A stretch of DNA of 32,778 nucleotides. Source: a virus. Numbering within the stretch: the stretch's first letter is position 1; each line of letters starts with the position of its first letter. This document shows, one piece after another, positions 1,408 to 17,400 of this stretch. The DNA lies in IMG/VR virus record IMGVR_UViG_3300025151_000162, positions 1 to 32,778 of that record. One strand, given 5' to 3'. Made by a program: the position numbers and the translations under genes. The notes under the pieces were generated by a model. That model was given only the letters and a program-made list of their open reading frames with translations, had not been told where the DNA came from and made no database searches.

Positions 1408-1443
1408 GTTACTCACCTCCAAAGTGTCCTTATAGTGTAAGCA
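1408..1443 (+). promoter_or_regulatory. Repeated promoter-like element, copy 1
   Basis: GTTACTCACCTCCAAAGTGT followed by a -10-like TATAGT at 1431-1436 and TGTAAGCA. It lies 49 bases before the ATG at 1457 and starts just after the previous stop. It is the best-formed of 13 copies and served as the alignment reference. Promoter function is inferred from the -10-like box and position. Confidence 0.7.
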
Positions 1444-1456
1444 CTCAACCAACACA

Positions 1457-1852
1457 ATGGGAACCCGCTCACGCATCGGTATTCAACTTCAAGATGACTC
1501 TATTCTTTCTGTTTATCATCATTGGGATGGTTATCCTCAGTGGTTGGGTAAAACACTCAAGGCACAATACAATACAAAGGAGAAAGTAGCAGAACTCATT
1601 GATGGTGGTGATATGTCAACCTGTTGGGCAGATGAGATCTGGGGTAAGAAACTTCCTGAGGGTGAATATGCTCCTGAGTATTATTCTGCTCGCGGTGAGA
1701 ATTGCCCTCCTAGTTTGATGAAATTCAATGAGTATCTGAATAAGAATAACAATGAAGAATATGCTTACATTTTCCGTAACAATGAGTGGGTATGTTATGA
1801 TATGAACGAGTTCAACGATAAGGAACCTGAACTGACTGAAATTCCTGCCTGA
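1457..1852 (+). CDS. Conserved phage protein beginning GTRSRIGI
   Basis: The 131-residue product begins MGTRSRIGIQ and continues with a YHHWDGYPQWLG segment at residues 19-30. I associate this pattern with a small protein family found in many tailed phages, but I know no established function. It has several Trp and Tyr residues, no membrane segment and an acidic C-terminus. The start is fixed by the upstream element at 1408 and by conservation of the GTRSRIG start. There is no Shine-Dalgarno sequence: the leader is CAACCAACACA. It is a monocistronic unit between copies 1 and 2 of the repeated element. Expression is probably early or middle, judged from the element and not measured. Confidence 0.85.
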   Translation: MGTRSRIGIQLQDDSILSVYHHWDGYPQWLGKTLKAQYNTKEKVAELIDGGDMSTCWADEIWGKKLPEGEYAPEYYSARGENCPPSLMKFNEYLNKNNNEEYAYIFRNNEWVCYDMNEFNDKEPELTEIPA

Positions 1853-1854
1853 TT

Positions 1855-1890
1855 ATTACTCACCTCCAAACTGTTTTATTATTGTAAGCA
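1855..1890 (+). promoter_or_regulatory. Repeated promoter-like element, copy 2
   Basis: ATTACTCACCTCCAAACTGT with a TATTAT -10-like box at 1877-1882 and TGTAAGCA. It begins directly after the stop of the 1457 gene and lies 44 bases before the ATG at 1899. One base (A for G) differs at position 1. Confidence 0.68.
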
Positions 1891-1898
1891 CAACACTT

Positions 1899-2033
1899 AT
1901 GGACTGGTTCGACGACAATCAAGTTGAAGAAATGGAAAACTTTGACTTTGTTTCTGAAGATCTTGAAGACATGATCGAAGAGCAAAAAAAGTTTAACATG
2001 AAAGAGTACCTCAACGGCAACATCGACTACTGA
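1899..2033 (+). CDS. Very small acidic hypothetical protein
   Basis: A 44-residue ORF starts at the ATG at 1899, 44 bases downstream of the repeated element copy 2, and ends at TGA 2031-2033. The product is strongly acidic, with Asp/Glu making up about a third of the residues and a likely helical middle around DLEDMIEEQKKF. The regular position behind the element and the codon use typical of its neighbours argue that it is real. The next gene starts 5 bases after its stop, so the two probably share a transcript. Acidic phage miniproteins can act as DNA mimics or bind host proteins, but nothing in the sequence proves this here. Not a recognised family. Confidence 0.62.
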   Translation: MDWFDDNQVEEMENFDFVSEDLEDMIEEQKKFNMKEYLNGNIDY

Positions 2034-2038
2034 AAACA

Positions 2039-2251
2039 ATGACTGAAACTGTAAACGTCCTTCCACATCTTCAAGAGCTCAAGACTCTTTGGCGGCAACA
2101 AGATTTCCGCTACACTAAAGACCAACGTGAGCAATATGATATGCTTATTGCAGCACGTCGTGAGCGAGTAAAATACTTTTATGAAGCGGGTTTGGTTGCG
2201 AAACCTGGCGAGCGACTGAATAAGGAGCAACAGGAAGAAGAAGACAGTTGA
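2039..2251 (+). CDS. Small hypothetical protein
   Basis: The 70-residue protein starts at the ATG at 2039, five bases after the previous stop, and has no promoter-like element of its own, so it is probably cotranscribed with the 1899 gene. It is highly charged and mostly helical in character, with KTLWRQQDFRYTKDQREQYD in the first half and a Glu-rich C-terminal tail. No membrane segment and no recognised motif are visible. A strong hairpin at 2259-2292 begins 8 bases after its stop and probably ends this transcript. Function unknown. Confidence 0.72.
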   Translation: MTETVNVLPHLQELKTLWRQQDFRYTKDQREQYDMLIAARRERVKYFYEAGLVAKPGERLNKEQQEEEDS

Positions 2252-2258
2252 ATATCTG

Positions 2259-2292
2259 GCACCCTGGTGTCCCCATAGGGGCATCGGGGTGT
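2259..2292 (+). terminator. Long hairpin, probable terminator
   Basis: The left arm GCACCCTGGTG-T-CCCC pairs with the right arm GGGG-CATCGGGGTGT around an ATA loop. This gives about 15 pairs with one bulged T and a few G-T pairs. The following TTATTATAA is only a weak T-tract. The hairpin lies between an early-type gene pair and a late-type promoter, where a terminator makes sense. Confidence 0.65.
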
Positions 2293-2298
2293 TATTAT

Positions 2299-2306
2299 AA
2301 TAAATA
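2299..2306 (+). promoter_or_regulatory. T4-type late promoter (AATAAATA)
   Basis: AATAAATA lies 23 bases before the ATG at 2330. It matches the TATAAATA-like late promoter of T4-type phages, which is read by host RNA polymerase with the phage sigma factor gp55. It directly follows the hairpin at 2259. Confidence 0.7.
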
Positions 2307-2329
2307 ACAGGAGACAAACACTACTCCAG

Positions 2330-2989
2330 ATGAAAACCTTCTCTCAATTTATCACTGAAGTCTATGATAAGGATGTGATGGGTTCATCCCAGATCAAAAA
2401 GTCTGGGGAAGGTGGACGCATCGGAGCAGAAAGGAAGAAAAGTAAACCCGAACGCCGCAGAATGAAGGCAGTCGGTGGTGGTAAGATGGAACCCGTAGAA
2501 TATAAAGACAGAAAAGATATTGGTCAGCAACGCCAACGTTCTGCAAGAGAGCAACAACCAACGCAAGAACGTGGTAGTAAAGAAGTCGCAAAAACATATG
2601 CAGATAAAGTAAAAGAAAGAAGAAGAGCAGAAGCAAGAGCTAGAGCAGCAGCAAAAGCATCTGGTGGTGATACTAAAGCAGCGTCAAAAGCAGCAAAGAC
2701 ATCATCTAGAGAAGCAGAAAAAGCAGCAACTAAACTCTTAACAACTAAAAAGAAAGAAGAGAAGAAACAACCATCAAAACCACGTCGCGACTGGAAAACC
2801 ACTGATGGTGGTGGAATGACTCGCAAGGAGAGAGATGCCGCTAGAAATAGAGAAAAAGGTGCTGCATTGAAAGCACGCAAAGCAGAACTTATTAAAGACT
2901 TCACTGAAAAGAATGGTCGTCCACCTAAAGGTGCAGAACGTACAAAACTCATTGGTTTAGCACACAAAGCAGTAAAAGCAGGCGTCTGA
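2330..2989 (+). CDS. Basic internal-head-like protein with capsid-targeting N-terminus
   Basis: This 219-residue protein is very rich in Lys, Arg and Ala (the middle, about residues 70-160, is nearly all Lys/Arg/Ala/Ser/Glu) and has no hydrophobic core. Its first ten residues, MKTFSQFITE, closely match the T4 capsid-targeting sequence MKTYQEFIAE of internal proteins IPI, IPII and IPIII. That tag is removed by the gp21 prohead protease after an I/L-x-E site; here the cut would follow E10 (ITE|V). A late promoter at 2299 supports virion expression. I infer a protein packaged in the head and possibly injected with the DNA, as T4 internal proteins are. The C-terminal part (about 185-215) looks more structured. 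Identity as an internal protein is inference; the N-terminal match is directly visible. Confidence 0.75.
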   Translation: MKTFSQFITEVYDKDVMGSSQIKKSGEGGRIGAERKKSKPERRRMKAVGGGKMEPVEYKDRKDIGQQRQRSAREQQPTQERGSKEVAKTYADKVKERRRAEARARAAAKASGGDTKAASKAAKTSSREAEKAATKLLTTKKKEEKKQPSKPRRDWKTTDGGGMTRKERDAARNREKGAALKARKAELIKDFTEKNGRPPKGAERTKLIGLAHKAVKAGV

Positions 2990-2991
2990 TT

Positions 2992-3027
2992 GTTACTCAC
3001 CTTGAAAACGTTCCATTGATAGGAACG
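2992..3027 (+). promoter_or_regulatory. Repeated promoter-like element, copy 3 (divergent)
   Basis: GTTACTCACCTTGAAAACGT is well conserved, but the second box is degenerate (ATTGATAGG in place of TAnTAnTGT). This is also the copy farthest from its gene, 69 bases before the ATG at 3061. It may be weak or use a shifted -10. Confidence 0.5.
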
Positions 3028-3060
3028 CCACCAGACACCCCCACAAGCGTCTCTAACACT

Positions 3061-3243
3061 ATGAAACAGGTTTCTATCTACGACTATACCCTTGTGAATG
3101 TAATTCAACGCTTGGAAGAAGCAATAGAGGTAACTTACGCTGCACCAGATAACCCAGAGCAGGGCTATCCTTATGCTGCTGGATACTCACGAGCAGCAAT
3201 GCAGGGTGTTCTTGAGTCTTTGCGTCCTTATTTGGAAGAATAA
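3061..3243 (+). CDS. Small hypothetical protein
   Basis: The 60-residue product starts at the ATG at 3061 (MKQVSIYDYTLVNVIQRLEE); an upstream in-frame TTG at 3016 would fall inside the promoter-like element and is rejected. The segment NPEQGYPYAAGYSRAAMQ at about residues 31-48 followed by a helical, acidic end suggests a small folded protein. No catalytic motif or membrane segment is seen. Element copy 4 begins 2 bases after its stop, so it stands alone as one promoter-gene unit. Family not recognised. Confidence 0.75.
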   Translation: MKQVSIYDYTLVNVIQRLEEAIEVTYAAPDNPEQGYPYAAGYSRAAMQGVLESLRPYLEE

Positions 3244-3245
3244 AA

Positions 3246-3281
3246 GTTACTCACCTCCAAAGTGTCCTAGTAGTGTCCCAA
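3246..3281 (+). promoter_or_regulatory. Repeated promoter-like element, copy 4
   Basis: GTTACTCACCTCCAAAGTGT then CCTAGTAGTGT. It starts right after the stop of the 3061 gene and 48 bases before the ATG at 3294. Confidence 0.68.
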
Positions 3282-3293
3282 ACAACAAACCAC

Positions 3294-3458
3294 ATGACCG
3301 AACGTCCCGAAGTTCTCCTGTCCCGTGCAGATTACATCGAAGACATTAAAGTTCGCTGGGAAATTCATCAGTTTGAAGTAAAAAAACTTCAAGAAGATAT
3401 TTCTCTGTTGGTAAACTGCTTGGTCGATAAGGCATACTATATGTCAACCGACCGATAA
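3294..3458 (+). CDS. Small hypothetical protein, coiled-coil-like
   Basis: The 54-residue protein starts at the ATG at 3294; an in-frame GTG at 3273 lies inside the promoter-like element and is not used here. The sequence is mostly helical in character, with IKVRWEIHQFEVKKLQEDI followed by LVNCLVDKAYYM, compatible with a short coiled coil and oligomer formation. A clear intrinsic terminator follows at 3466-3491, so this is a complete promoter-gene-terminator cassette. Function unknown. Confidence 0.75.
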   Translation: MTERPEVLLSRADYIEDIKVRWEIHQFEVKKLQEDISLLVNCLVDKAYYMSTDR

Positions 3459-3465
3459 GATGAAA

Positions 3466-3491
3466 GGAGGGTATCACTACCCTCTTTTTTT
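3466..3491 (+). terminator. Rho-independent terminator
   Basis: The stem GAGGGTA / TACCCTC (3467-3473 with 3478-3484) has a TCAC loop and is followed by seven T residues (3485-3491). This is a textbook intrinsic terminator just after the 3294 gene. Confidence 0.9.
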
Positions 3492-3505
3492 GTGCCAATG
3501 TCAAT

Positions 3506-3534
3506 GTTACTCACCTCCAAACTGTTTTAGTAGT
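3506..3534 (+). promoter_or_regulatory. Repeated promoter-like element, copy 5 (fused to start codon)
   Basis: GTTACTCACCTCCAAACTGT then TTTAGTAGT. The ATG of the next gene occupies positions 30-32 of the element (3535), where other copies have GTA. A start from the usual -10 distance would leave no untranslated leader. Confidence 0.62.
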
Positions 3535-4437
3535 ATGAAGAACACTCACATTGAACACCCCGAAGACTCTATCCTGACTGGAGATCTTTCGGTTCTTGAC
3601 TGGTTTGCAGAACCCGATAGCTACATCAGTACCAAGATTGATGGTGCTCCTGCTATTGTTTGGGGTACAGATCCTGCGACTGGTACATTTTTTGTTGGAA
3701 CCAAAGCAGTATTCAACAAGGTAAAGATTCGCATTGCTCACACTCATGAAGAAATTGATACGTTCTATCAGGGTAAAGTTGCGCGTATTCTTCACGCTTG
3801 CTTTGACTGCCTACCTCGCACAACTTCTATCATTCAAGGTGATTTTATTGGTTATGGTGGTAGTGATACTTATCGCCCCAATACGGTTACTTACATCTTT
3901 CCTGAAATAATTGCAGAGGATATTATCATTGCACCCCACACCATCTATGTGGCAAAAGGTGACCTTCGTAATGCAGTTTCATCGCCGTTGATACTTTCTC
4001 CCAAAAGCACTGATGAATGTTTGTTTGTGAAACCTGAGGTTTCATTGAACCCTTATCGTGAAGATCTGGGAGACATTTGTAACTTTGCCAAACAAATGGC
4101 AACACTATGTCACTCTTCGTTTTTGGATGACAAAACTGCTGCAAAAGTCAAAAAACATATCAATGACTGCATCCGTAATGAGAATGTCATTGATGAGAAT
4201 GAAATTGCAGAAAAGTTTGACATTGACATCAATGTGATGCGTTTGTGGAAGTTAGTTGCAACTATCAAGGATGATTTGTTCTGCTTCATTGATGAACGCG
4301 ACGACATTGAATGTATGATCGGCAACATGCACACTTTGCATGAAGGTTATGTCATCACCAACAAATATGGTATGTTCAAAGTTGTTGACCGTCAAGAGTT
4401 CAGTCGTGCAAACTTCATCATGGAGAAAACTTGGTGA
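3535..4437 (+). CDS. Ligase/nucleotidyltransferase-like phage protein
   Basis: This 300-residue protein resembles a cyanophage family that looks like the catalytic fold of ATP-dependent DNA/RNA ligases. KIDGAPA at residues 34-40 matches ligase motif I (KxDG), in which the lysine takes up AMP. QGDFIGYGG at 101-109 can be read as motif III, and HEGYVITN at 269-276 with FKVVDR at 281-286 as motifs IV and V. The opening IEHPEDSILTGDLSVLDWF (6-24) is a further block I associate with this family. The spacing between motifs III and IV is longer than in classic ligases and seems to hold an inserted helical part (about 180-260). A longer ATG at 3460 would read through a terminator and the promoter-like element, so 3535 is preferred. 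Enzymatic activity is inferred; RNA or DNA end repair is possible. Confidence 0.8.
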   Translation: MKNTHIEHPEDSILTGDLSVLDWFAEPDSYISTKIDGAPAIVWGTDPATGTFFVGTKAVFNKVKIRIAHTHEEIDTFYQGKVARILHACFDCLPRTTSIIQGDFIGYGGSDTYRPNTVTYIFPEIIAEDIIIAPHTIYVAKGDLRNAVSSPLILSPKSTDECLFVKPEVSLNPYREDLGDICNFAKQMATLCHSSFLDDKTAAKVKKHINDCIRNENVIDENEIAEKFDIDINVMRLWKLVATIKDDLFCFIDERDDIECMIGNMHTLHEGYVITNKYGMFKVVDRQEFSRANFIMEKTW

Positions 4438-4444
4438 GTTAAAA

Positions 4445-4480
4445 GTTACTCACCTCTAAACTGTTCTAGTATTGTAACGC
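4445..4480 (+). promoter_or_regulatory. Repeated promoter-like element, copy 6
   Basis: GTTACTCACCTCTAAACTGT then TCTAGTATTGTAACGC, 45 bases before the ATG at 4490. The -10-like box TAGTAT is at 4467-4472. Confidence 0.68.
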
Positions 4481-4489
4481 CTCAACATT

Positions 4490-4855
4490 ATGCCTACTGA
4501 ATTTGCTGACTTCGTTGCAAGTCAGGATGCTCGTAAAACTATTCAAGAAAACATCGAAAAGCACTGTCTGACGTTATGTGATGCTCTCCAGATGGATTTT
4601 AACAAGAGGGGACACACTCTCGAATACAAGTTCTACATCGAAAGTGGTAGAAAGTATCACAAAATTGTGATGGAAACTGAATCAGGTTCCCGTAGCGCTC
4701 ACGCTTTTGTTGATAAGAAGACTGGTGAAGTTTACAAAGCAGCATCATTCAAAGCACCTGCAAAGCATGTTCGCTACAACTTAAACATCATTTCCAGTCG
4801 TGAAGAATGTTTTGCCCGTGCAGACTGGGCAGGAGGTTATCTCTACATCCGATGA
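4490..4855 (+). CDS. Conserved phage hypothetical protein
   Basis: The 121-residue protein has a helical N-terminal half and a C-terminal half with GSRSAHAFVDKKTGEVYKAA (residues 65-84) followed by SFKAPAKHVRYNL (85-97). I recognise the VDKKTGEVYKxAS-KxPAK pattern from uncharacterised proteins of many tailed phages; no function is known to me. It begins a three-gene run: its stop overlaps the ATG at 4852 (ATGA), and that gene overlaps the next. The run is headed by element copy 6, so the three are probably cotranscribed and translationally coupled. Cytoplasmic; no membrane segment here. Confidence 0.8.
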   Translation: MPTEFADFVASQDARKTIQENIEKHCLTLCDALQMDFNKRGHTLEYKFYIESGRKYHKIVMETESGSRSAHAFVDKKTGEVYKAASFKAPAKHVRYNLNIISSREECFARADWAGGYLYIR

Positions 4856-5055
4856 AATACTCTCGTTCCGATCTTATCAATGCGTTATGTGCAGAGTGGG
4901 ACTATCTCTGCCATGATGACTTTGACCCTGAAAATGATCAAACAACTGAAGAATACCGTGAAGAACTTCAAAACTACAGTTATGAAGAGTTAGTAGAAGA
5001 AACTAGCACTGGTGAAGGTTACACTCTCAAGCAATTCATGGAGAACTGGTTATGA
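4852..5055 (+). CDS. Small acidic hypothetical protein
   Basis: The 67-residue product starts at the ATG at 4852, overlapping the previous stop by ATGA. An upstream in-frame start at 4807 would lie deep inside the preceding gene and is not needed. The protein is strongly acidic (DDFDPENDQTTEEYREELQ at residues 22-40) and probably helical. Its stop overlaps the start of the next gene in the same way, so it is the middle gene of a coupled trio. No recognised motif. Confidence 0.75.
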   Translation: MKYSRSDLINALCAEWDYLCHDDFDPENDQTTEEYREELQNYSYEELVEETSTGEGYTLKQFMENWL

Positions 5056-5375
5056 TTTATGACATCAGAGTTCGTCCGCAAGTAGGACAAACTGACTTGT
5101 TTCAACCTTACATTGAAACGGTTGAAGCTTTGACTGCTCACGATGCAATTTCAATGGTACAACGTAGGAACCCTGGTTGTCTCGTACAATGTGAAGGTTC
5201 TTATAATGAACCGCGTGAAAGTTCTGGAGTTGGTGACATTGTAAGTGCCACAGGTTGGATGATATTGTTAGGGTTTATTTTTGCAGTTTGGCTTGCAATT
5301 GAGTATTGGTACATTGTTATACCTTGTGCTGTTATTCTAGTTGTTGCTATGTTGAGTGTAAAGTTTACCGACTAA
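5052..5375 (+). CDS. Small two-span membrane protein
   Basis: The 107-residue protein has a soluble N-terminal part (about 1-66) and two adjacent hydrophobic segments: residues 69-84 (GWMILLGFIFAVWLAI) and 87-102 (YIVIPCAVILVVAMLS). A short KFTD tail follows. Only a few residues separate them, suggesting a tight hairpin in the inner membrane with the N-terminal domain on one side. The N-terminal pattern YDIRVRPQ...ALTAHDAISMVQRRNPG resembles a small alpha/beta domain. There is no signal peptide. It is the last gene of the coupled trio from 4490. A membrane-remodelling or superinfection role is only a guess. Confidence 0.78.
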   Translation: MIYDIRVRPQVGQTDLFQPYIETVEALTAHDAISMVQRRNPGCLVQCEGSYNEPRESSGVGDIVSATGWMILLGFIFAVWLAIEYWYIVIPCAVILVVAMLSVKFTD

Positions 5376-5377
5376 AA

Positions 5378-5406
5378 GTTACTCACCTCTAAAGTGTTGT
5401 AGTTGT
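5378..5406 (+). promoter_or_regulatory. Repeated promoter-like element, copy 7 (fused to start codon)
   Basis: GTTACTCACCTCTAAAGTGT then TGTAGTTGT, with the ATG of the next gene exactly at element position 30 (5407). Same arrangement as at 3535 and 7212. Confidence 0.62.
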
Positions 5407-5622
5407 ATGGACATCAAAACTTACCCGTTGTTTTCTGAACTTGACAAGATGACAAATGCTCGAAACAAAGTAGTACAACACCTTTCGATTCCTGAAAACC
5501 GCATCAACTATTCGTTTCATTTTCTTGACAACTTCAACGATACATTTGTTGACTGCAAAAAATGTTATGATGCGATAGCAAAATGGTCTGAACAACTTGA
5601 CACATCAGAGGCACATTATTGA
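5407..5622 (+). CDS. Small hypothetical protein
   Basis: The 71-residue protein begins at the ATG fused to element copy 7. The next Met is at residue 15, so a later start would remove a fifth of the protein. It contains FHFLDNFNDTFVDCKKCYDA (about residues 37-56), with a CKKC pair that could bind metal or form a disulfide, though a single CxxC is weak evidence. It heads a run of three overlapping genes (5407, 5622, 5810) joined by TGATG junctions. Family not recognised. Confidence 0.72.
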   Translation: MDIKTYPLFSELDKMTNARNKVVQHLSIPENRINYSFHFLDNFNDTFVDCKKCYDAIAKWSEQLDTSEAHY

Positions 5623-5810
5623 TGCAAACTACCACTGCAACATATAAAATTGAGGTGACAACTGATGAGGGTTCGTTATCATTTTTAAAGGTAATGCCCA
5701 CCAAACCAAAAACATCAAAGGGTATTAAGTCACAGAATACAAAGTTATCGAAGTGGGTAGAAAAACAGTATCCTAACTTCACTGAATACAACATTATTCC
5801 ATTTGACTGA
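5622..5810 (+). CDS. Small hypothetical protein
   Basis: The 62-residue protein starts at the ATG at 5622, whose A is the last base of the preceding TGA, so translation is probably coupled. An in-frame TTG three bases earlier is less likely. The product has a beta-like start (TYKIEVTTDEGSLSFLKVMP) and a Lys/Ser/Thr-rich middle, net basic. No membrane segment or catalytic motif is seen. The next gene begins in the same TGATG fashion. Confidence 0.7.
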   Translation: MQTTTATYKIEVTTDEGSLSFLKVMPTKPKTSKGIKSQNTKLSKWVEKQYPNFTEYNIIPFD

Positions 5811-5977
5811 TGATTACTTCCAAGTCCCAAATGCTCAACATCATGAAAAACTGTGATGGAGCAGATACTCTCACCCGTGAGGAGAAGTTTCAAGTATTCT
5901 GCAATGTATGTGACAATATGTTAGCAGAAGGAAGAATGTCCAAAGCAAACCATAAACGATGGACAAACATTTGGTGA
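5810..5977 (+). CDS. Very small hypothetical protein
   Basis: A 55-residue ORF starts at the ATG at 5810, sharing its A with the stop of the previous gene, and ends at TGA 5975-5977. It is helical in character with two Cys around residues 31-34 (CNVC) and a basic, Trp-ending tail (KANHKRWTNIW). The overlapping start, consistent codon use and the regular element starting 8 bases after its stop make it a likely real gene. Function unknown. Confidence 0.65.
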   Translation: MITSKSQMLNIMKNCDGADTLTREEKFQVFCNVCDNMLAEGRMSKANHKRWTNIW

Positions 5978-5984
5978 GATAAAA

Positions 5985-6020
5985 GTTACTCACCTCCAAA
6001 GTGTCCCTGTAGTGTAAGCA
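5985..6020 (+). promoter_or_regulatory. Repeated promoter-like element, copy 8
   Basis: GTTACTCACCTCCAAAGTGT then CCCTGTAGTGTAAGCA, 48 bases before the ATG at 6033. The 22 bases 6014-6035, from the end of the element through the start codon, are identical to 7537-7558 of copy 12. Confidence 0.7.
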
Positions 6021-6032
6021 ACCATTCATCTC

Positions 6033-6296
6033 ATGAAAACAGTCACACTCAAGCGTAGCGAGTGGGAGTGCTATATTGACACTCCCGACGCTGTTATTGA
6101 CACTGTGAACACTTTTTTCACTTTACTTCTTGCCGACAATGATGATGCAGTCAACGCTCAAAGTGTGATGTATCGTTATTTGAAAGCATATCAAGAATGG
6201 GGTTTTTGTGATAGTGAGTGCAACGAAGTTGTGACTCGTACTATCAACAAACATTATGGAACTTCATTAGACCGTTGGGCATGTTTAGCGTTCTGA
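6033..6296 (+). CDS. Small hypothetical protein
   Basis: The 87-residue protein begins MKTVTLKRSEWECYIDTPDA and ends with a Cys/Trp-containing WACLAF. A central hydrophobic stretch, VNTFFTLLLA (residues 25-34), is too short for a membrane span and probably forms a core helix. The start sits behind element copy 8 at the usual distance and has no Shine-Dalgarno sequence (leader ACCATTCATCTC). A short T-rich stretch follows. No family recognised. Confidence 0.75.
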   Translation: MKTVTLKRSEWECYIDTPDAVIDTVNTFFTLLLADNDDAVNAQSVMYRYLKAYQEWGFCDSECNEVVTRTINKHYGTSLDRWACLAF

Positions 6297-6322
6297 CGCT
6301 TTACATAGTCCTTCTTTTTTTT
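6286..6322 (+). terminator. Possible weak terminator
   Basis: A short stem AGCGT/ACGCT spans the stop codon of the 6033 gene. About 11 bases later there is a run of eight T residues at 6314-6322. The gap between stem and T-run makes termination doubtful. Confidence 0.35.
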
Positions 6323-6332
6323 GTCCTTTAAA

Positions 6333-6368
6333 GTTACTCACCTCTAAACTGTTCTATTATTGTCCGCA
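6333..6368 (+). promoter_or_regulatory. Repeated promoter-like element, copy 9
   Basis: GTTACTCACCTCTAAACTGT then TCTATTATTGT, 47 bases before the ATG at 6380. The -10-like box TATTAT is at 6355-6360. Confidence 0.68.
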
Positions 6369-6379
6369 CCACTTCTGTC

Positions 6380-6619
6380 ATGAACACAACTATTCTACTT
6401 TGTGAAGAACTTGGTTGTGCCTATTCAATAGATTCTGAAGGCACAATGTATTATTCACCTCTTGAGAATAATTCCTGGACACTTGAAACTGATGACTGGT
6501 CAGAAGTAGATTTTATGAGTCTTTTAGGTGAAGAACAATACATTCAAGATACGGTGAATAAGTGTCATGAACAACTCATCACTATGATGAAGTCAGTGGG
6601 GGAGTATTACCAGAAATAA
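6380..6619 (+). CDS. Small acidic hypothetical protein
   Basis: The 79-residue protein begins MNTTILLCEELGCAYSIDSE and has a beta-rich first half (SEGTMYYSPLENNSWTLE), an acidic middle and a helical C-terminal end. It is net acidic with no membrane segment. It is a single-gene unit between element copies 9 and 10; the stop is 2 bases before copy 10. Not a recognised family. Confidence 0.75.
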   Translation: MNTTILLCEELGCAYSIDSEGTMYYSPLENNSWTLETDDWSEVDFMSLLGEEQYIQDTVNKCHEQLITMMKSVGEYYQK

Positions 6620-6621
6620 AA

Positions 6622-6657
6622 GTTACTCACCTTTAAACTGTTCTAATAACGTACCGC
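6622..6657 (+). promoter_or_regulatory. Repeated promoter-like element, copy 10
   Basis: GTTACTCACCTTTAAACTGT then TCTAATAACGTACCGC, 49 bases before the ATG at 6671. The -10-like box is TAATAA at 6644-6649. Confidence 0.66.
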
Positions 6658-6670
6658 ACTTCTTCATCTT

Positions 6671-6937
6671 ATGCAAGTCACTAACTCTGCTGTCATTGTT
6701 GACTATTTCCCCGAAGCATTTGTTGCCGAGTCTGATGACATCAAAGGGATGAAAGTTACCATCCGACGTTTCATCAAACGAGTGCATTTCCGCGCTAATG
6801 GTATGAAGTCTTATAGCGTAGTTAAAGCTACTGATGCGAAATATGATTGGAGTGCTCGTATCAACAACGGTTCACAAGTTACTGGTTTCAATACAGACAA
6901 AATGCCACAATCTGAGTATATGCCGATGATGTGCTGA
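6671..6937 (+). CDS. Small hypothetical protein
   Basis: The 88-residue protein begins MQVTNSAVIVDYFPEAFVAE, with a basic central part (KVTIRRFIKRVHFRANG, about residues 28-44) and a C-terminal QVTGFNTDKMPQSEYMPMMC. The alternation of charged and hydrophobic residues suggests a small beta-rich fold. It sits behind element copy 10 at the standard distance. The next gene, 46 bases downstream, has no element and may share this transcript. No recognised function. Confidence 0.75.
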   Translation: MQVTNSAVIVDYFPEAFVAESDDIKGMKVTIRRFIKRVHFRANGMKSYSVVKATDAKYDWSARINNGSQVTGFNTDKMPQSEYMPMMC

Positions 6938-6983
6938 TGCTATATTTCTTGTCCGTTATTGTTATTATTGTTTCTCTATTATC

Positions 6984-7181
6984 ATGACTGAAACCAAAGA
7001 CAACATCATCAACCGCGATGAACTTCAAGCATCATATATCAACCAAGTTTTGGATGATATGGACATCAAAGATATGATGGCGATTCTTTATGATTATATG
7101 GACGTTGAGTTTGATAAGTATTCAGTTGATGAATTGATAGAAGAAGTTGAAGAGTATTATCCACATCTTTTGGAGGAATAA
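6984..7181 (+). CDS. Small acidic hypothetical protein
   Basis: The 65-residue protein is one of the most acidic in the window, with long helical stretches such as VLDDMDIKDMMAILYDYMDV and a C-terminal ELIEEVEEYYPHLLEE. It has no own copy of the repeated element; the 46-base gap before it is T-rich (TTATTGTTATTATTG), so it is probably read from the 6671 transcript. The acidic, helical character would suit a protein-binding or DNA-mimic role, but this is inference. Element copy 11 starts 2 bases after its stop. Confidence 0.73.
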   Translation: MTETKDNIINRDELQASYINQVLDDMDIKDMMAILYDYMDVEFDKYSVDELIEEVEEYYPHLLEE

Positions 7182-7182
7182 A

Positions 7183-7211
7183 GTTACTCACCTTGAAAGT
7201 GTTGTAGTTGT
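7183..7211 (+). promoter_or_regulatory. Repeated promoter-like element, copy 11 (fused to start codon)
   Basis: GTTACTCACCTTGAAAGTGT then TGTAGTTGT, with the ATG at element position 30 (7212). This is the third case of a start codon embedded at the same position. Confidence 0.62.
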
Positions 7212-7454
7212 ATGAATGACACTATGAAAAACAAAATGACTTTCCGCTATGCACTTTCTGTTCTTGAGGAACAATTTGACTCCACATATCGTGGCATTGC
7301 AACTGTTAAAGAAATGACAACAGATTTACAATCTGCCATTGCATTTGAGGGTGAAAAACCCGAGACTGTTTATCATCGGTTTGAGACTAAAGTTGGTCCG
7401 AATCGTATTGTTAAAGAGGATCAAGTTATTGCACTTGCACAACATTATGTTTAA
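7212..7454 (+). CDS. Small hypothetical protein
   Basis: The 80-residue protein begins MNDTMKNKMTFRYALSVLEE at the ATG fused to element copy 11. In-frame ATGs at 7224 and 7236 (residues 5 and 9) are possible true starts, and a leader would exist for them. The segment YRGIATVKEMTTDLQSAI reads as a helix, followed by a more extended C-terminal half. No motif or membrane segment. A short AT-rich inverted repeat (TTAAGA...TCTTAA, 7451-7470) follows the stop and could weakly terminate. Confidence 0.72.
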   Translation: MNDTMKNKMTFRYALSVLEEQFDSTYRGIATVKEMTTDLQSAIAFEGEKPETVYHRFETKVGPNRIVKEDQVIALAQHYV

Positions 7455-7507
7455 GATTTTCACGTCTTAAAAGTTACACATAAAACTCTTATTCTCATCG
7501 AATAAAA

Positions 7508-7543
7508 GTTACTCACCTCCAAAGTGTTCCAATAACGTAAGCA
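7508..7543 (+). promoter_or_regulatory. Repeated promoter-like element, copy 12
   Basis: GTTACTCACCTCCAAAGTGT then TCCAATAACGTAAGCA, 48 bases before the ATG at 7556. About 35 bases upstream, AAAAGTTACACA (7470-7481) looks like a decayed first half of another copy. Confidence 0.68.
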
Positions 7544-7555
7544 ACCATTCATCTC

Positions 7556-8032
7556 ATGCTCAAAGGTCAAGAACTCCTCAACGCAGTTTCACTCTACACT
7601 CAACAAGGAATGTCCCGAGTTGATATGTGCCGCGCCTGTGGTTATGAAGTAGATGGAAAGGCAAAGTTCACTGCTTTTTATGAGTCTATTATGGAAGCAA
7701 AAGGTATCACAACCGCTGCCGTTGCTGAACAACAAGACGAAGTAATTGCAGAGGATACTAACAACCAAGAGACTATCAATGAACTCTTGGAAGACTATCC
7801 CGCTGCTGCTATTGAGGAGTTTATTGAATACTTCGGTGAAGGTAGTATTGACTCCTTTACTGATGCTTACCAAGGTCAAATGTCAGGTGCAGAGTTTGCA
7901 GAACAACTCACTACTGATTGTTACTGTCTCGACATTCCTGCCTTCCTTTGTATTGACTGGGAAGCAACCTGGAATGAACTCTCCCATGACTATGTTGACC
8001 TCGGAGGTTACATCTTCTGCTGTAACTTCTGA
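7556..8032 (+). CDS. ArdA-like antirestriction protein with cyanobacterial AbrB-like N-terminus
   Basis: The 158-residue protein joins two recognisable parts. Residues 1-51 (MLKGQELLNAV..., CRACGY at 25-30, FTAFYESIMEAKGI at 38-51) match the N-terminal region of cyanobacterial AbrB-like regulators, whose usual start is LTGKALL...ACGY...FYEALLEAKG. A Gln/Glu/Asp-rich linker follows. Residues about 78-158 (FTDAYQGQMSGAEFAEQL at 101-118, LDIPAFLCIDWEATWNEL at 125-142, GGYIF near the end) match the C-terminal part of ArdA antirestriction proteins, acidic DNA mimics that inhibit type I restriction enzymes. The usual ArdA N-terminal domain and the AbrB DNA-binding half are both missing. It is followed by a strong terminator. 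Role in blocking host restriction is inferred from the family. Confidence 0.85.
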   Translation: MLKGQELLNAVSLYTQQGMSRVDMCRACGYEVDGKAKFTAFYESIMEAKGITTAAVAEQQDEVIAEDTNNQETINELLEDYPAAAIEEFIEYFGEGSIDSFTDAYQGQMSGAEFAEQLTTDCYCLDIPAFLCIDWEATWNELSHDYVDLGGYIFCCNF

Positions 8033-8052
8033 TAGGTAGTAAACACTCTAAA

Positions 8053-8096
8053 AGCAGTCCTTTTGTGCCATTATACATAAGGATTGCTCTTTTTTT
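8053..8096 (+). terminator. Rho-independent terminator
   Basis: A 10-pair stem AGCAGTCCTT / AAGGATTGCT (8053-8062 with 8079-8088, one G-T pair) carries a 16-base loop. It is followed by CTTTTTTT. It closes the small-gene island behind the ArdA-like gene. Confidence 0.88.
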
Positions 8097-8210
8097 ATAT
8101 TAAAAAAGGTTTTTTAAATGTATTTTGATTGTTTGTATCGAGTCTAACATTATGAAGAAGAAGTTACTTAAGAGGGTATCTGAAGGGTCTCTAGAGTATC
8201 TTCCGAGGTA

Positions 8211-8265
8211 CTTTATGCCTCTCTAAATGTCTCTTATGCCTGCCACTTTATGTCTCTCTAAATGT
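8211..8265. repeat. 20-base direct repeat pair
   Basis: CTTTATGCCTCTCTAAATGT at 8211-8230 recurs at 8246-8265 with a single change (C to T at the eighth base). The start-to-start distance is 35 bases. CTCTTATGCC between them is a partial third copy. Confidence 0.8.
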
Positions 8266-8363
8266 GTCAGTACCTTGTGATCTTAGCCCGCACTCTATCA
8301 CAAGAGCACAGAAATGTCAAGCACCCGCTCATAAGTTTTCCCGGGACTTGACACGCAAAAAAC

Positions 8364-8416
8364 ATAAGCGTCCCTCATAAATAGCGGTTATGAGGTTGAC
8401 ATATAGAGACGCTTAT
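8364..8416. repeat. Nested inverted repeats around a -35 box
   Basis: Outer arms ATAAGCGTC (8364-8372) and GACGCTTAT (8408-8416) pair perfectly. Inside them CCTCATAA (8373-8380) and TTATGAGG (8388-8395) pair around a 7-base loop. The only unpaired interior stretch is 8396-8407, which begins with the TTGACA -35 box. Confidence 0.8.
8376..8383 (+). promoter_or_regulatory. Possible late promoter (CATAAATA)
   Basis: CATAAATA matches the NATAAATA late pattern and lies 70 bases before the 8454 gene, farther than the other late promoters here. It overlaps the inner hairpin. It may be coincidental. Confidence 0.3.
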
Positions 8417-8424
8417 TCTACACT
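8396..8424 (+). promoter_or_regulatory. Sigma-70-like promoter
   Basis: TTGACA at 8396-8401, a 17-base spacer, and TACACT at 8419-8424 (4 of 6 matches to TATAAT). This gives a predicted start near 8431, about 20 bases before the ATG at 8454. It is likely used by host polymerase early after infection. Confidence 0.7.
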
Positions 8425-8453
8425 GTAACAGTCTTCACACCACTCGGAGAATC

Positions 8454-8627
8454 ATGCCTGCTATCTATCAACAAGCACAGAAGCAACGTTATCGCATCAC
8501 CTTGGATATTGAGGCATTGGGAGATTTCGACCCCCATAATATCAACTGGGAAAGGTTGTTCCAACTTGAAGGTTCTGAGAGGTGTGATGCTTATGTGGAG
8601 GACCTGAGTACACCTGACACCTGGTGA
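8454..8627 (+). CDS. Small conserved-type hypothetical protein
   Basis: The 57-residue protein (MPAIYQQAQKQRYRITLDIE ... TPDTW) starts at the ATG at 8454 behind a sigma-70-like promoter. It holds a beta-like RYRITLDIEAL followed by DFDPHNINWERLFQLEG and an acidic end. I associate this pattern with small unnamed cyanophage proteins, but I cannot give a function. No membrane segment or catalytic residues. Copy 13 of the repeated element follows after 15 bases. Confidence 0.72.
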   Translation: MPAIYQQAQKQRYRITLDIEALGDFDPHNINWERLFQLEGSERCDAYVEDLSTPDTW

Positions 8628-8642
8628 TTATAGTGCTTCATT

Positions 8643-8678
8643 ATTACTCACCTTGAAAGTGTCCTTATAGTGTAAGGG
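8643..8678 (+). promoter_or_regulatory. Repeated promoter-like element, copy 13
   Basis: ATTACTCACCTTGAAAGTGT then CCTTATAGTGTAAGGG, 53 bases before the ATG at 8696. This copy lies outside the main island, beyond the terminator at 8053. Confidence 0.68.
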
Positions 8679-9306: not shown

Positions 9307-9514
9307 GGCAGTATTCGTATTCGGCAGTTATTGTGCCCTTATGTGTTAACGTGCGGGGCGCGTAACGGGGGGCGTTATAAAAACCCATAACTACCCTAAC
9401 CTACAGAGGTGACAAAACGCGAGCTCTATTTCATTCTCATAAAAAATTCCCGGGCAGATATATAAAACATGAAAGGGTTTTATAGTGAAGCAAATTATTT
9501 CCGGAGAAAATTTT
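9307..9514. other. Long leader / non-coding region before the cupin gene
   Basis: About 200 bases without a convincing gene. It holds a locally G-rich stretch with a small hairpin (TAACG/CGTTA, 9363-9367 with 9373-9377, five-G loop). It also holds a CTCATAA heptamer followed by TTCCCGGG (9436-9454), resembling 8328-8345. A 26-codon ORF at 9469 overlaps the cupin start and is not supported. Confidence 0.5.
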
Positions 9515-9853
9515 ATGAGTCAGGAGACCCGTCCATGGGGGTGGTATGAGACATTTATAGAGGAGGTAGGGTATAAGGTCAAGCGTATCACAGTAGTTGC
9601 GGAGCAGAGTATATCATTACAGTATCATAACCACAGAGAGGAGCACTGGACTATTGTTGATGGTGAGGGGTATATAACTATTGAAGGTGTTGAATATTAT
9701 GGAAAGGTTGGTGATAGTTTCCATATCAAGACTGGGGAGGTACATCGAATACGTGGAGGAGAGAGGGGAGTTATATTTGTAGAGGTACAGATAGGAGATA
9801 AATGTGAGGAGAAGGACATTGTAAGACTGGAGGATGAGTATGGTAGAAACTAA
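9515..9853 (+). CDS. Mannose-6-phosphate isomerase-type cupin
   Basis: The 112-residue protein matches the cupin domain found as the C-terminal part of type II phosphomannose isomerase / mannose-1-phosphate guanylyltransferase enzymes. RPWGWYETF opens the domain, SLQYHNHREEHW (34-45) is the first cupin motif with metal-binding His38, His40 and Glu43, KTGEVHRI (72-79) is the second with His77, and the end DIVRLEDEYGR is typical. It would interconvert fructose-6-phosphate and mannose-6-phosphate, supplying mannose for glycans; the glycosyltransferase two genes on would fit. The ATG at 9515 has a GGAG Shine-Dalgarno 8 bases upstream, unusual here; a GTG at 9485 is less likely. Codons (AGA, GGA, ATA, GGG) differ from the genes upstream. 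Confidence 0.85.
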   Translation: MSQETRPWGWYETFIEEVGYKVKRITVVAEQSISLQYHNHREEHWTIVDGEGYITIEGVEYYGKVGDSFHIKTGEVHRIRGGERGVIFVEVQIGDKCEEKDIVRLEDEYGRN

Positions 9854-14444: not shown

Positions 14445-17400
14445 ATGATAAACAAAAGGGTTAAGATTAGTTCAGTTGTCGAAAATCAACTGCCTGCTTA
14501 TGTCAGAGATAATTATCCTCTGGTAGGAGAATTTTTATCTCAATATTATACGTCTTTAGATAAACAAAGTGGAGCATACGATATTCTACAGAATATCGAT
14601 CAGTATATAAAACTTGAAGAACTCACAAGTTTAGTTGAATCTACAACACTATCTTCTGGTGTTGAATTTACTGATGACACTATATCTGTAAATTCTACTT
14701 CAGGATTTCCAGATACCTATGGTCTTTTAAAAATCGGTGATGAGATCATTACTTATACCTCTAAGACAAACACCACGTTTGAGGGGTGTATAAGGGGTTT
14801 CAGCGGCGTTACTTCCTATCAAGCGAACAATATACCCGACCAGTTGGTATTTACTGAAACCAACATTGAGGAGCACTCTAACGGGGATACTGTATCTAAT
14901 CTTAGTATTCTTTTCCTAAAAGCGTTCTTTAAAAAAGTAAAGAAACAATTCGTTCCTGGTTTTGATGAAAGAACTTTAGACTCAGATCTAAACCAAAATC
15001 TTTTCATCAAACAGGCTAAGGACTTTTACTCTTCAAAGGGTACAGATGAGTCTTTTGAAATTCTTTTTAGAGCACTGTTTGGCGAAGATGTAGAAACCAT
15101 CAGACCACAAGATTATCTGTTCATCCCATCAGACTCTCAGTATAGAGTTACTAAAGACCTTGTAGTTAGGGCAGTAGAGGGTGATCCAGAAAACTTACTC
15201 AACCAAACACTATATCAAGACAAAACTGACTTTTTTAACTCTGCATCTGGTGCTATCTCAAAAGTAGAAAAGATTACCAGAGGCGATGATGTCTACTATG
15301 TTTTAAGTTTAGACTATGACTATAGTAGAGACATTAATGCGGAAGGATCTGTTATCGGTGAGTTCCCCATTCATTCAAAAACTAAAGTTGTAACTCCCGC
15401 AGAAATTAATTCTGATACTTTAGATGTTGACTCGACTGTTGGTTTCCCAGACTCGGGAGAGTTGATTGCTTATATGAGCAATGGTACAACTGTAACGTTT
15501 ACCTATGAGTCAAAGTCATATACACAGTTCTTCGGATGTTCTAATATCGATCAATTACTTGATGAAGGACAAGATGTCTACATCAACACTTTTGCGTATG
15601 GATATGTTGGACAAGGAACTAATGATATCGTAAAAGTTCTTATTACTGGTGTTCTCTCTGACCTTTCTATTGACGAAGAAACTAAACTGTATACTGCCGG
15701 CGATACTATTACAATAAAGACGCTTGGTAAAGATGATAGAAGTGCATTATCTGATAGTTGGATTTATAATATTGCAACAACATATGATGTTGAAAATATC
15801 ACTCTAGTTGATGCTGCAAACTTTACTTATAGAGTTGATACGTTTGATGATACGGACTTTTCTATTGGTGATAGAGTAAAGTTTAAGTTCACCGATGGTT
15901 CTGAGAAAGTATCCAACGTTGTTGCGGTTTTTGCTGTTGCATCTGATAGTTCTTTCTTCGTTGCAGGACAGGGTGCTATTGATGTAAACAGAAAGTATCA
16001 AGTTCAGAGAACAATTCTGAAAGGAGACTTTTCAAATTATTCAAAACTTGACAATCAAGCTGCTAATATTCAGAACACATACGTTGGCCCACAAAATAAT
16101 TCTTTCTTTGTAACTTCAAACTCACTGCCATCATATTTGAATGAAGAGATTGATGTTGATGATAGATCTGTAACGTTTGGTGGAACTTTCAACGGCGAAG
16201 AGTTAGATATCGGTTCTCATGGTTTCTATACAGGAGATGCTGTATACTACAAACCTGCAAGTGATACAAATACCCTCAATATTGCTGAAGGAATTTACTT
16301 CACTGAAAAAGTAAACTCCACAACTGTAAAAATTGCCCGCAGTAGATCTAATCTATTCAAACAAGACTATCTGACGATAACTGGTACAGTATCAGATAAT
16401 AAGTTTGAATTCAATGACCTGGCAAACCAAACTTTAGAATCTCAGAAAATTGTTAGAACGATTGACAGTCCATCTTCAGATGGTGATGTATATGAAACTG
16501 AGTTTGGTGCAACTGGTATCTTAGTTAACGGTGTTGAGATATTAAATTACAAGTCAAAGAATAGTGTTTTCTATGGAGCACTTGATGACATTCAAGTTCT
16601 TTCTCCAGGTGAAGACTATGATGTAATTAATCCACCAGTCTTAGAAATTACTGATGTTGTTGGTACTGGTGCAACAGGTTTCTGTGAAGTTGTGGGTAAC
16701 TTTGATAGTATTAACGTCATTGATGGTGGTTTTGACTATCTGAGTACTCCTGTTGTCAATATTTCTGGCGGCGGTGGTTCTGGTGCAAAAGCAGAAGCAA
16801 ACTTATTCACCGTTGAGCACGAAGCATCATTCAATTCAATATTAATAGCAAACCAAGTTAATCTTTCAAATAATACTATTGGTTTCTCTTCCTTCCACAA
16901 GTTTAGAGATGCTGAGAAAGTTATCTATCAACCTGATGGACAACAGGCTATTGGTGGTTTAACTACTAGTGCAGCATATTATGTTTCTGTTCAGGATGCA
17001 TATACGGTAACGTTACATAATACTCGAACTGATGCTGCCGATGACGTTAACCCAGTTGACCTGACTTCATATGGTGTAGGAAACCATAGAGTTATATCTA
17101 CCAATCTTAAAAAACAAATTACCTCTATCACATGTACTGATAAGGGTCAAAACTATAGAAACAGAAAAGTTTCTGTTCCCTCTTCTAATATTGATTCATA
17201 TTCAGACACTATTGTTGCTAAAAACCACGGGTATAACTCTGGTGATGTCTTAGTATATTCTGCTACTGGAACTGCAGCATCTGGTTTAGTAGATGGTAAC
17301 TCATATTATATCACTGTTGTAGATGAAAACTCATTTAAGTTATCAGTATTAGGAACTTCACCTCTTGCAGAAGACTTCTACTACAGCACAAAGCAATATA

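Follow-up and report, generated by a model that had tools for sequence, protein, structure and literature searches.

The window analysed here is a 32,778-nt stretch of virus DNA (IMG/VR record IMGVR_UViG_3300025151_000162, positions 1 to 32,778). It is a fragment of a T4-like cyanophage, as judged from gp25, gp6 and gp7, which follow at 12–26 kb. Its left part holds thirteen copies of an element headed by the 10-bp box TTACTCACCT, and an open reading frame (ORF) at 2330–2989 on the plus strand that encodes a Lys/Arg-rich protein of 219 amino acids. Comparison with related phages suggests that the element is a promoter whose left box is read by the C-terminus of this protein.

Copies and anatomy of the repeated element

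All thirteen exact copies of TTACTCACCT lie on the plus strand and are confined to 7.3 kb (1409–8653) of the 32.8-kb fragment. In the whole window, the minus strand yielded no copy, and the part from 8.7 to 32.8 kb was empty as well; about 0.06 occurrences would be expected from base count alone. An earlier reading of the letters of this stretch (the sequence-only reading) had counted the same copies, with starts one base low. The full pattern TTACTCACCTNNAAANTGT is present in 12 of the 13 copies, with no match on the reverse strand and none for a reversed control pattern. The window was also scanned with a weight matrix trained on other contigs. The 13 copies scored 26–73 bits. No other site on either strand exceeded −11.9, and 20 shuffled controls reached −4.6 at best. 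The repeated element is confirmed as real and specific.

Element 1 (1409–1439, 69.7 bits; ATG 1457, offset 48 from the first base of the left box) is a full copy, composed of TTACTCACCT, CCAAAGTGT and TATAGTGT. In elements 5 (3507–3537; ATG 3535), 7 (5379–5409; ATG 5407) and 11 (7184–7214; ATG 7212), the ATG of the gene lies within the element, at offset 28. In the other full copies it follows 43–52 bases after the element start: elements 2 (1856–1886, 37.6 bits; ATG 1899, offset 43), 4 (3247–3277; ATG 3294, offset 47), 6 (4446–4476; ATG 4490, offset 44), 8 (5986–6016, 72.6 bits; ATG 6033, offset 47), 9 (6334–6364; ATG 6380, offset 46), 10 (6623–6653; ATG 6671, offset 48), 12 (7509–7539; ATG 7556, offset 47) and 13 (8644–8674, 44.4 bits; ATG 8696, offset 52). 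The cassette layout of one element per gene is supported. The bipartite structure that had been ascribed to every copy holds for twelve; element 3 (2993–3023, 26.1 bits) has the left box alone, followed by an inverted repeat, CGTTCC-ATTGATA-GGAACG, in place of the AAAnTGT and TAnTAn boxes, and the next ATG is at 3061 (offset 68).

A logo of 331 distinct copies showed TTACTCACCT at offsets 0–9, CYAAASTGTCC at 10–20, and TAGTAGTRT or TATAGTRT up to offset 29, with RAGCAC after it; this form describes the third box better than TAnTAn does. Conservation extends upstream, with AA.TT at −19 to −15 and AWTAAAG at −8 to −1, a stretch that partly overlaps the preceding gene.

No sigma-70-type site was called at any of the 13 elements, in which the second hexamer partly reads TATAGT/TAGTRT. 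The left box showed no match to the MotA box consensus. The sequence-only reading had likewise held the first box to be neither a sigma-70 −35 nor a MotA box. The T4-type late promoter motif, TATAAATA or NATAAATA, was absent from the elements; it does precede ORF 2330–2989 and gp25. TTACTCACC resembles the complement of a conserved part of 16S rRNA, and CACTATAG the T7 promoter; we take both likenesses to be due to chance. The behaviour of the element is that of a promoter, of a class resembling neither sigma-70 nor MotA promoters. Marine T4-like cyanophages lack motA and asiA, in agreement with the sequence-only reading, as well as alt, modA and modB (PMC2984593).

The left box differs between phage genomes

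Searches of related cyanophages, also proposed earlier, found the core of the element combined with many left boxes. In IMG/VR, the exact pattern occurred in up to 13 copies per contig among the matches listed, and the element with the right half AAAGTGTCC-TATAGTRTRAGCAC occurred in hundreds of cyanophage contigs; a search with the core alone gave 1025 copies on 275 stretches. Among isolates, the exact pattern was found in SynMITS9220M01, S-B05, RN05-S and RB11-B, and weakly in S-B43. In genomes that were searched whole, the copies formed one cluster in one orientation upstream of gp25, with 12 copies in SynMITS9220M01 and 15 in a 222-kb contig; S-B05 has two extra copies beside its homologue of ORF 2330–2989, which lies away from the cluster in that phage. 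The window belongs to the class so described, with the core AAASTGTCC-TATAGTRT, a genome-specific left box and many copies on one strand.

Left boxes were compared by Hamming distance, and contig types were assigned by medoid, as single-linkage classes merged types via intermediates. The mean distance was 0.64 of 10 positions within contigs and 5.18 between contigs. Boxes found include TTACTCACCT, TAGCTCACCT, TTAGTAACCT, TTAGGATCGT, CTTGGATCCT, ACTGGGCCCC, TCTGGGGCCT, GGGGGGACGT, ACTGAAGCCT and ACTGTAGCCC, among others. S-SM2 and P-TIM68 have a right half resembling that of the window and different left boxes (GGGGGGTCGC and TTAGTTACCT). Because the box is uniform in a genome and changes jointly between genomes, a factor that changes along with the boxes would be expected. 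Mixed left boxes in contigs L101, L346, L406 and L310 perhaps reflect recent recombination of promoter–gene cassettes between phages with different boxes.

The left box was also considered as a host regulatory site. Across 84,980 species genomes there were 59 scattered single matches, none of them in a genome titled Synechococcus or Prochlorococcus, and the element is therefore not a copied host site.

The C-terminus of one protein covaries with the left box

The sequence-only reading had suggested a new early/middle activator or sigma factor behind the element. The element does point to a phage factor, for which ORF 2330–2989 is now a strong candidate. ORFs from 248 contigs fell into 90 families that were each represented in 15 or more contigs, and only the family of ORF 2330–2989 tracked the box. 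In this family the nearest relative (below 90% identity) had the same box in 76% of cases, with a mean box distance of 1.39, versus 4.56 for random relatives. In all other real families the figure was at most 55%, and typically about 30%. A 55-amino-acid orthogroup that ranked first was set aside; it was confined to contigs of a single box type and seems to be the candidate gene read in another frame.

The covariation resides in the C-terminal 58 amino acids (rho = −0.46; N-terminal 95 amino acids, +0.04; partial correlation −0.48, 0 of 200 permutations). Four control genes from the same contigs, namely DUF6267, a helicase, a DUF7717-like gene and another neighbour, gave rho values of 0.01–0.08. 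With each control taken into account, the partial correlation between C-terminus and box was −0.51 to −0.54 (0 of 199 permutations each); the values for the protein's own N-terminus and for the four controls lay within 0.01–0.14. Phylogeny as the source of the covariation is ruled out by the control genes and by the N-terminus.

The residue that follows the motif [ST]xxE[RK] also tracks the box. D accompanies TCACCT in 39 of 41 cases, M accompanies TAACCT, N GGATCGT, L TTGGATC, and K GGGG/GGGCC. The window protein has the motif MTRKERD where its last helix pair begins, a type which fits its box TTACTCACCT. The box was then predicted from the nearest neighbour by C-terminus, with relatives above 0.85 similarity left out, for 43 distinct cases; 41 were correct, as compared with 22 of 43 for the N-terminus and 37% at random. 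Outside the training set, S-B05 (D type) has TTACTCACCT and the single-cell virus AG-345-O18 (K type) has GGGGGGTCGC, both as expected, and a second single-cell virus, AG-345-E15 (Q type), has ACTGAAGCGT, as expected at 8 of 10 positions.

Protein and element also occur together. Of 58 contigs found by protein profile and not by the element, 56 hold the element. In the window the deviant element 3 follows the candidate gene, and in 84 of 101 homologues the stop codon has a box of the protein's own type no more than 25 nt away. Among 50,697 phage records the protein was found in 10, as against 465 for DUF6267 from the same cluster. These ten represent eight phages, all with the element: S-B05, RN05-S, RB11-B, SynMITS9220M01, S-SM2, P-TIM68, AG-345-E15 and AG-345-O18. 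In the same search it was absent from Syn9, S-RIM2, P-TIM40, P-SSM4, ACG-2014f and Bellamy, which have a different early-region promoter. Taken together, these data suggest that the C-terminus very probably reads the left box.

The candidate factor resembles a late, capsid-targeted protein

A late-promoter-like sequence, AATAAATA, stands before the candidate gene at 2299–2306 on the plus strand, where the early element is absent. Among 98 homologues, [AC]TAAATA was found within 70 nt upstream in 98% and the early element in 0%; for gp25, a late gene, the late motif was present in 100%. The candidate factor would thus appear to be expressed late. Its N-terminus, MKTFSQFITEV, fits the pattern MKT(Y/F)xxF...E and resembles that of T4 IpII and IpIII (both MKTYQEFIAEA). 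T4 internal proteins are packaged via a capsid-targeting sequence and injected (PMC3012670). Given the capsid-targeting-like N-terminus and the late promoter, it is quite likely that the candidate factor is packaged in the head and injected with the DNA. It shares with T4 IpI, IpII and IpIII the N-terminal stretch and the character of a small basic protein, but has no detectable relation to them beyond that stretch. Binding to a specific promoter sequence is not known for any T4 internal protein.

In two members, AlphaFold2 predicted a two-helix unit at the C-terminus with confidence (predicted local distance difference test score 85–95) and the rest of the chain with low confidence. The best structural match (Z 6.4 over 54 residues) reflects the two-helix arrangement and is weak, and it rules out no family. 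No PHROG was assigned to the window protein, and Pfam searches across 45 members returned scattered chance-level matches only.

Start codons and terminators place the transcript start within the element

Among copies with the box TTACTCACCT, the start codon was the ATG at offset 28 in 140 of 321; in the remainder it lay at offset 42 or beyond, and offsets 29–41 were nearly empty. The offset-28 ATG was in frame with the downstream ORF far more often than not (98:13:3), whereas the same position in copies without this ATG showed no frame preference (57:46:51). Copies with other left boxes provided an independent repeat, with 297 start codons at offset 28, 11 at 29–42, and a frame ratio of 208:20:6. 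Nearly everywhere, offset 28 is a purine following T.

The DUF6267/phrog_455 gene (3535–4437, plus strand), which begins MKNTHIEHPEDSILTGD, has its start set by homologues including that of Bellamy. An intrinsic terminator at 3466–3491 on the plus strand (AGGAGGGTA TCAC TACCCTC, then a T run) adjoins element 5 upstream. Terminators about 20 nt before the DUF6267 element were found in the window and in ten other contigs, and the stem occurs in several versions. Since a terminator precedes the element and the ATG is at offset 28, the DUF6267 transcript would begin in the element, at or before that offset. DUF6267/phrog_455 is in 465 phage records, nearly all of them cyanophages, and in many contigs its own terminator and promoter precede the gene.

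We lean towards the purine at offset 28 as the transcript start, which fits the occurrence of start codons at 28 and then almost none until 42. By this assignment, mRNAs would be leaderless at about half of the genes, and most others would have leaders of about 14–24 nt. The sequence-only reading had instead taken TAnTAn as a sigma-70 −10 with the start about 7 bases on, at offset 34–36; the left box would then replace the −35 and be read by an activator. In its favour are TAnnnT at offsets 24–29, 18 nt after TTACTC, AT-rich tracts where UP elements would be, and conserved C33-A34. It is difficult to reconcile with the use of the offset-28 ATG as start codon at about half of the copies, and the terminator before the DUF6267 element leaves no other transcript source for that ATG. 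The DUF6267 start is itself well placed, as codons 2–5 show conservation at the protein level and the orthologue in Bellamy has the same first residue behind a different promoter. A start at 34–36 would therefore seem unlikely.

Other cyanophages have a dyad-type promoter in the same region

In Syn9, S-RIM2, P-TIM40, P-SSM4, ACG-2014f and Bellamy, the dyad TGTGACAGTTG-N4-AAGTGGCACA precedes an extended −10 (for example TGCTATACT) by about 37 nt. It was found by motif discovery in the corresponding region of ten further phages and by anchored alignments, and occurs at least 18 times in ACG-2014f. Sequences upstream of DUF6267 orthologues show the swap between dyad type and window type directly. 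The left half of the dyad and the distant −10 are absent from the window elements, in which the half-site AA[G/C]TGTCC is similar. A capsid-targeted homologue was looked for in the early region of dyad-type phages and not found.

Doron et al. 2016 (ISME J 10:1437) reportedly described a novel, non-T4 regulatory element of early genes in the cyanophages Syn9 and P-TIM40. These are likewise T4-like cyanophages, with an element repeated before small genes at the same place, upstream of gp25-gp6-gp7. The window type differs from the dyad computed here for these phages in its left box, in having no such −10, and in the position of its core directly at the start codon; the half-site AA[G/C]TGTCC may be common to window type and dyad.

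Neighbouring genes

The early cluster also holds a D12-class DNA adenine methyltransferase (PF02086) at 268–1110 and an anti-restriction-like protein (phrog_36653) at 7556–8032. Downstream of the cassette region, 9485–9853 encodes a cupin, like the C-terminus of mannose-6-phosphate isomerase (PF01050), with a GTG start. The gp7-like baseplate protein (14445–26504) is very long, at 4019 amino acids, as it is in related cyanophages.

Discussion

The element is very probably a promoter, and it is moderately probable that an injected, box-specific activator directs host RNA polymerase to it early in infection. In this scheme the right half, AAASTGTCC-TATAGTRT-RAGCAC, would be a core common to a large clade of T4-like cyanophages, and the left 10-bp box the specificity site, in one version per genome that differs between genomes. 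The box would be recognised by the C-terminal two-helix region of the small basic protein from 2330–2989. This protein would be synthesised late, under a T4-type late promoter. An N-terminal capsid-targeting sequence similar to that of T4 IpII and IpIII would direct it into the head, and it would be injected along with the DNA into a new cell. There it would bind the left boxes and recruit host RNA polymerase, in its unmodified state, to the early promoters, and the small early genes would then be transcribed without Alt, MotA or AsiA. The transcript would begin at the purine at offset 28 and be leaderless where that base is the A of the ATG. The early timing of the element genes is suggested by the position of the cluster and the types of gene.

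Several points weigh against this scheme. A few contigs (L101, L346 and L406) have mixed box types, and S-B43 has two element copies and no protein homologue that could be found. The proposed capsid targeting derives from a resemblance over 11 residues, and only the two C-terminal helices are confidently predicted; comparison with the PDB by sequence and structure gave no solved relative and no meaningful fold match. The upstream AT-rich tracts and TAnnnT mentioned above would also fit a start at 34–36 for the genes with a far ATG.

A further point of this kind is that covariation alone is compatible with a repressor. Such a protein, made late, would bind the left boxes and shut the early promoters, or block a second phage of the same type, and some other factor would activate them. 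The late promoter of the gene and a site within the core promoter would suit this role. The capsid-targeting-like N-terminus speaks against it, as a repressor, if injected, would act at the wrong time. The left box is fixed 2 nt from the core in every box type, an arrangement expected less of an operator than of the site of an activator or sigma-like factor. By itself, the core is also unlike any known strong promoter. We regard a late repressor as distinctly improbable, and the factor as likely an activator.

It is less probable still, to the point of being very doubtful, that the box is read in mRNA, in processing or translation, with transcription starting upstream. The direct link to start codons and the absence of a Shine-Dalgarno sequence are what such an element might show. 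A start codon 0 or 14–24 nt after the element would be odd for a ribosome site, though, and conservation (AA.TT, AWTAAAG) extends back into the previous gene. There is no conserved stem; the sole candidate hairpin, a CAC...GTG pairing, is disrupted by AAAC variants (17%). The sequence-only reading had itself raised an RNA element inside stable mRNAs, which the terminators just upstream make unlikely, as they put the transcript start inside the element. That the box instead marks DNA so that an internal protein can package it, protect it from restriction or organise the chromosome, its promoter place being secondary, might be suggested by the methyltransferase gene and by an anti-restriction protein among the T4 internal proteins that act after injection (PMC3012670), but this is the least credible possibility, as virtually all copies are equally spaced before a gene with the same core and none was found elsewhere in the genomes searched.

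The proposed injected activator can be compared with several known systems. T4 Alt, which is also packaged, favours early promoters (PMC5780444), but it modifies RNA polymerase enzymatically. At T4 middle promoters the −35 role for host RNA polymerase passes to MotA, a DNA-binding protein of the phage; the promoter sequence is unrelated, MotA is made after infection, and motA and asiA are lacking in cyanophages. In promoters of the T7/T3/SP6 type a common core is joined to a specificity block, and this block and the phage factor that reads it diverge in concert. The element here is about 30 bp, versus 23 bp for T7, and the candidate is a 200-amino-acid basic protein; no single-subunit polymerase was identified. 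In N4 and phiKZ-like phages, a factor delivered with the DNA directs early transcription (PMC4496689, PMC5312081), as would be the case here. That factor is a virion RNA polymerase, whereas the candidate here is a small, predicted DNA-binding protein.

More broadly, there is about an even chance that these proteins form a hypervariable family of virion-delivered activators, in which each lineage has a promoter password and a matching injected reader. The recognition helix would evolve fast in concert with 10–20 sites per genome. The code linking residues to bases would be readable, and turnover would be independent of neighbour-gene phylogeny. Competition between co-infecting phages, or host countermeasures, perhaps drives this turnover.

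T4-like cyanophages rank with the most abundant marine viruses. For transcription that starts without alt, modA, motA and asiA, whose T4 products redirect host RNA polymerase, the analysis names a candidate cis element, a matching candidate trans factor and a proposed delivery route. The residue-to-base code can be tested by swapping, and the revised transcript start alters what a 5′-end experiment should look for. Predicted DNA-binding domains that are closely related and have a dozen distinct 10-bp specificities offer a natural data set for the evolution of promoter specificity, and the left box provides a sequence tag for phage lineages in metagenomes. If the proposed mechanism is true, the early genes of these phages would answer only to a protein that arrives with the same genome.

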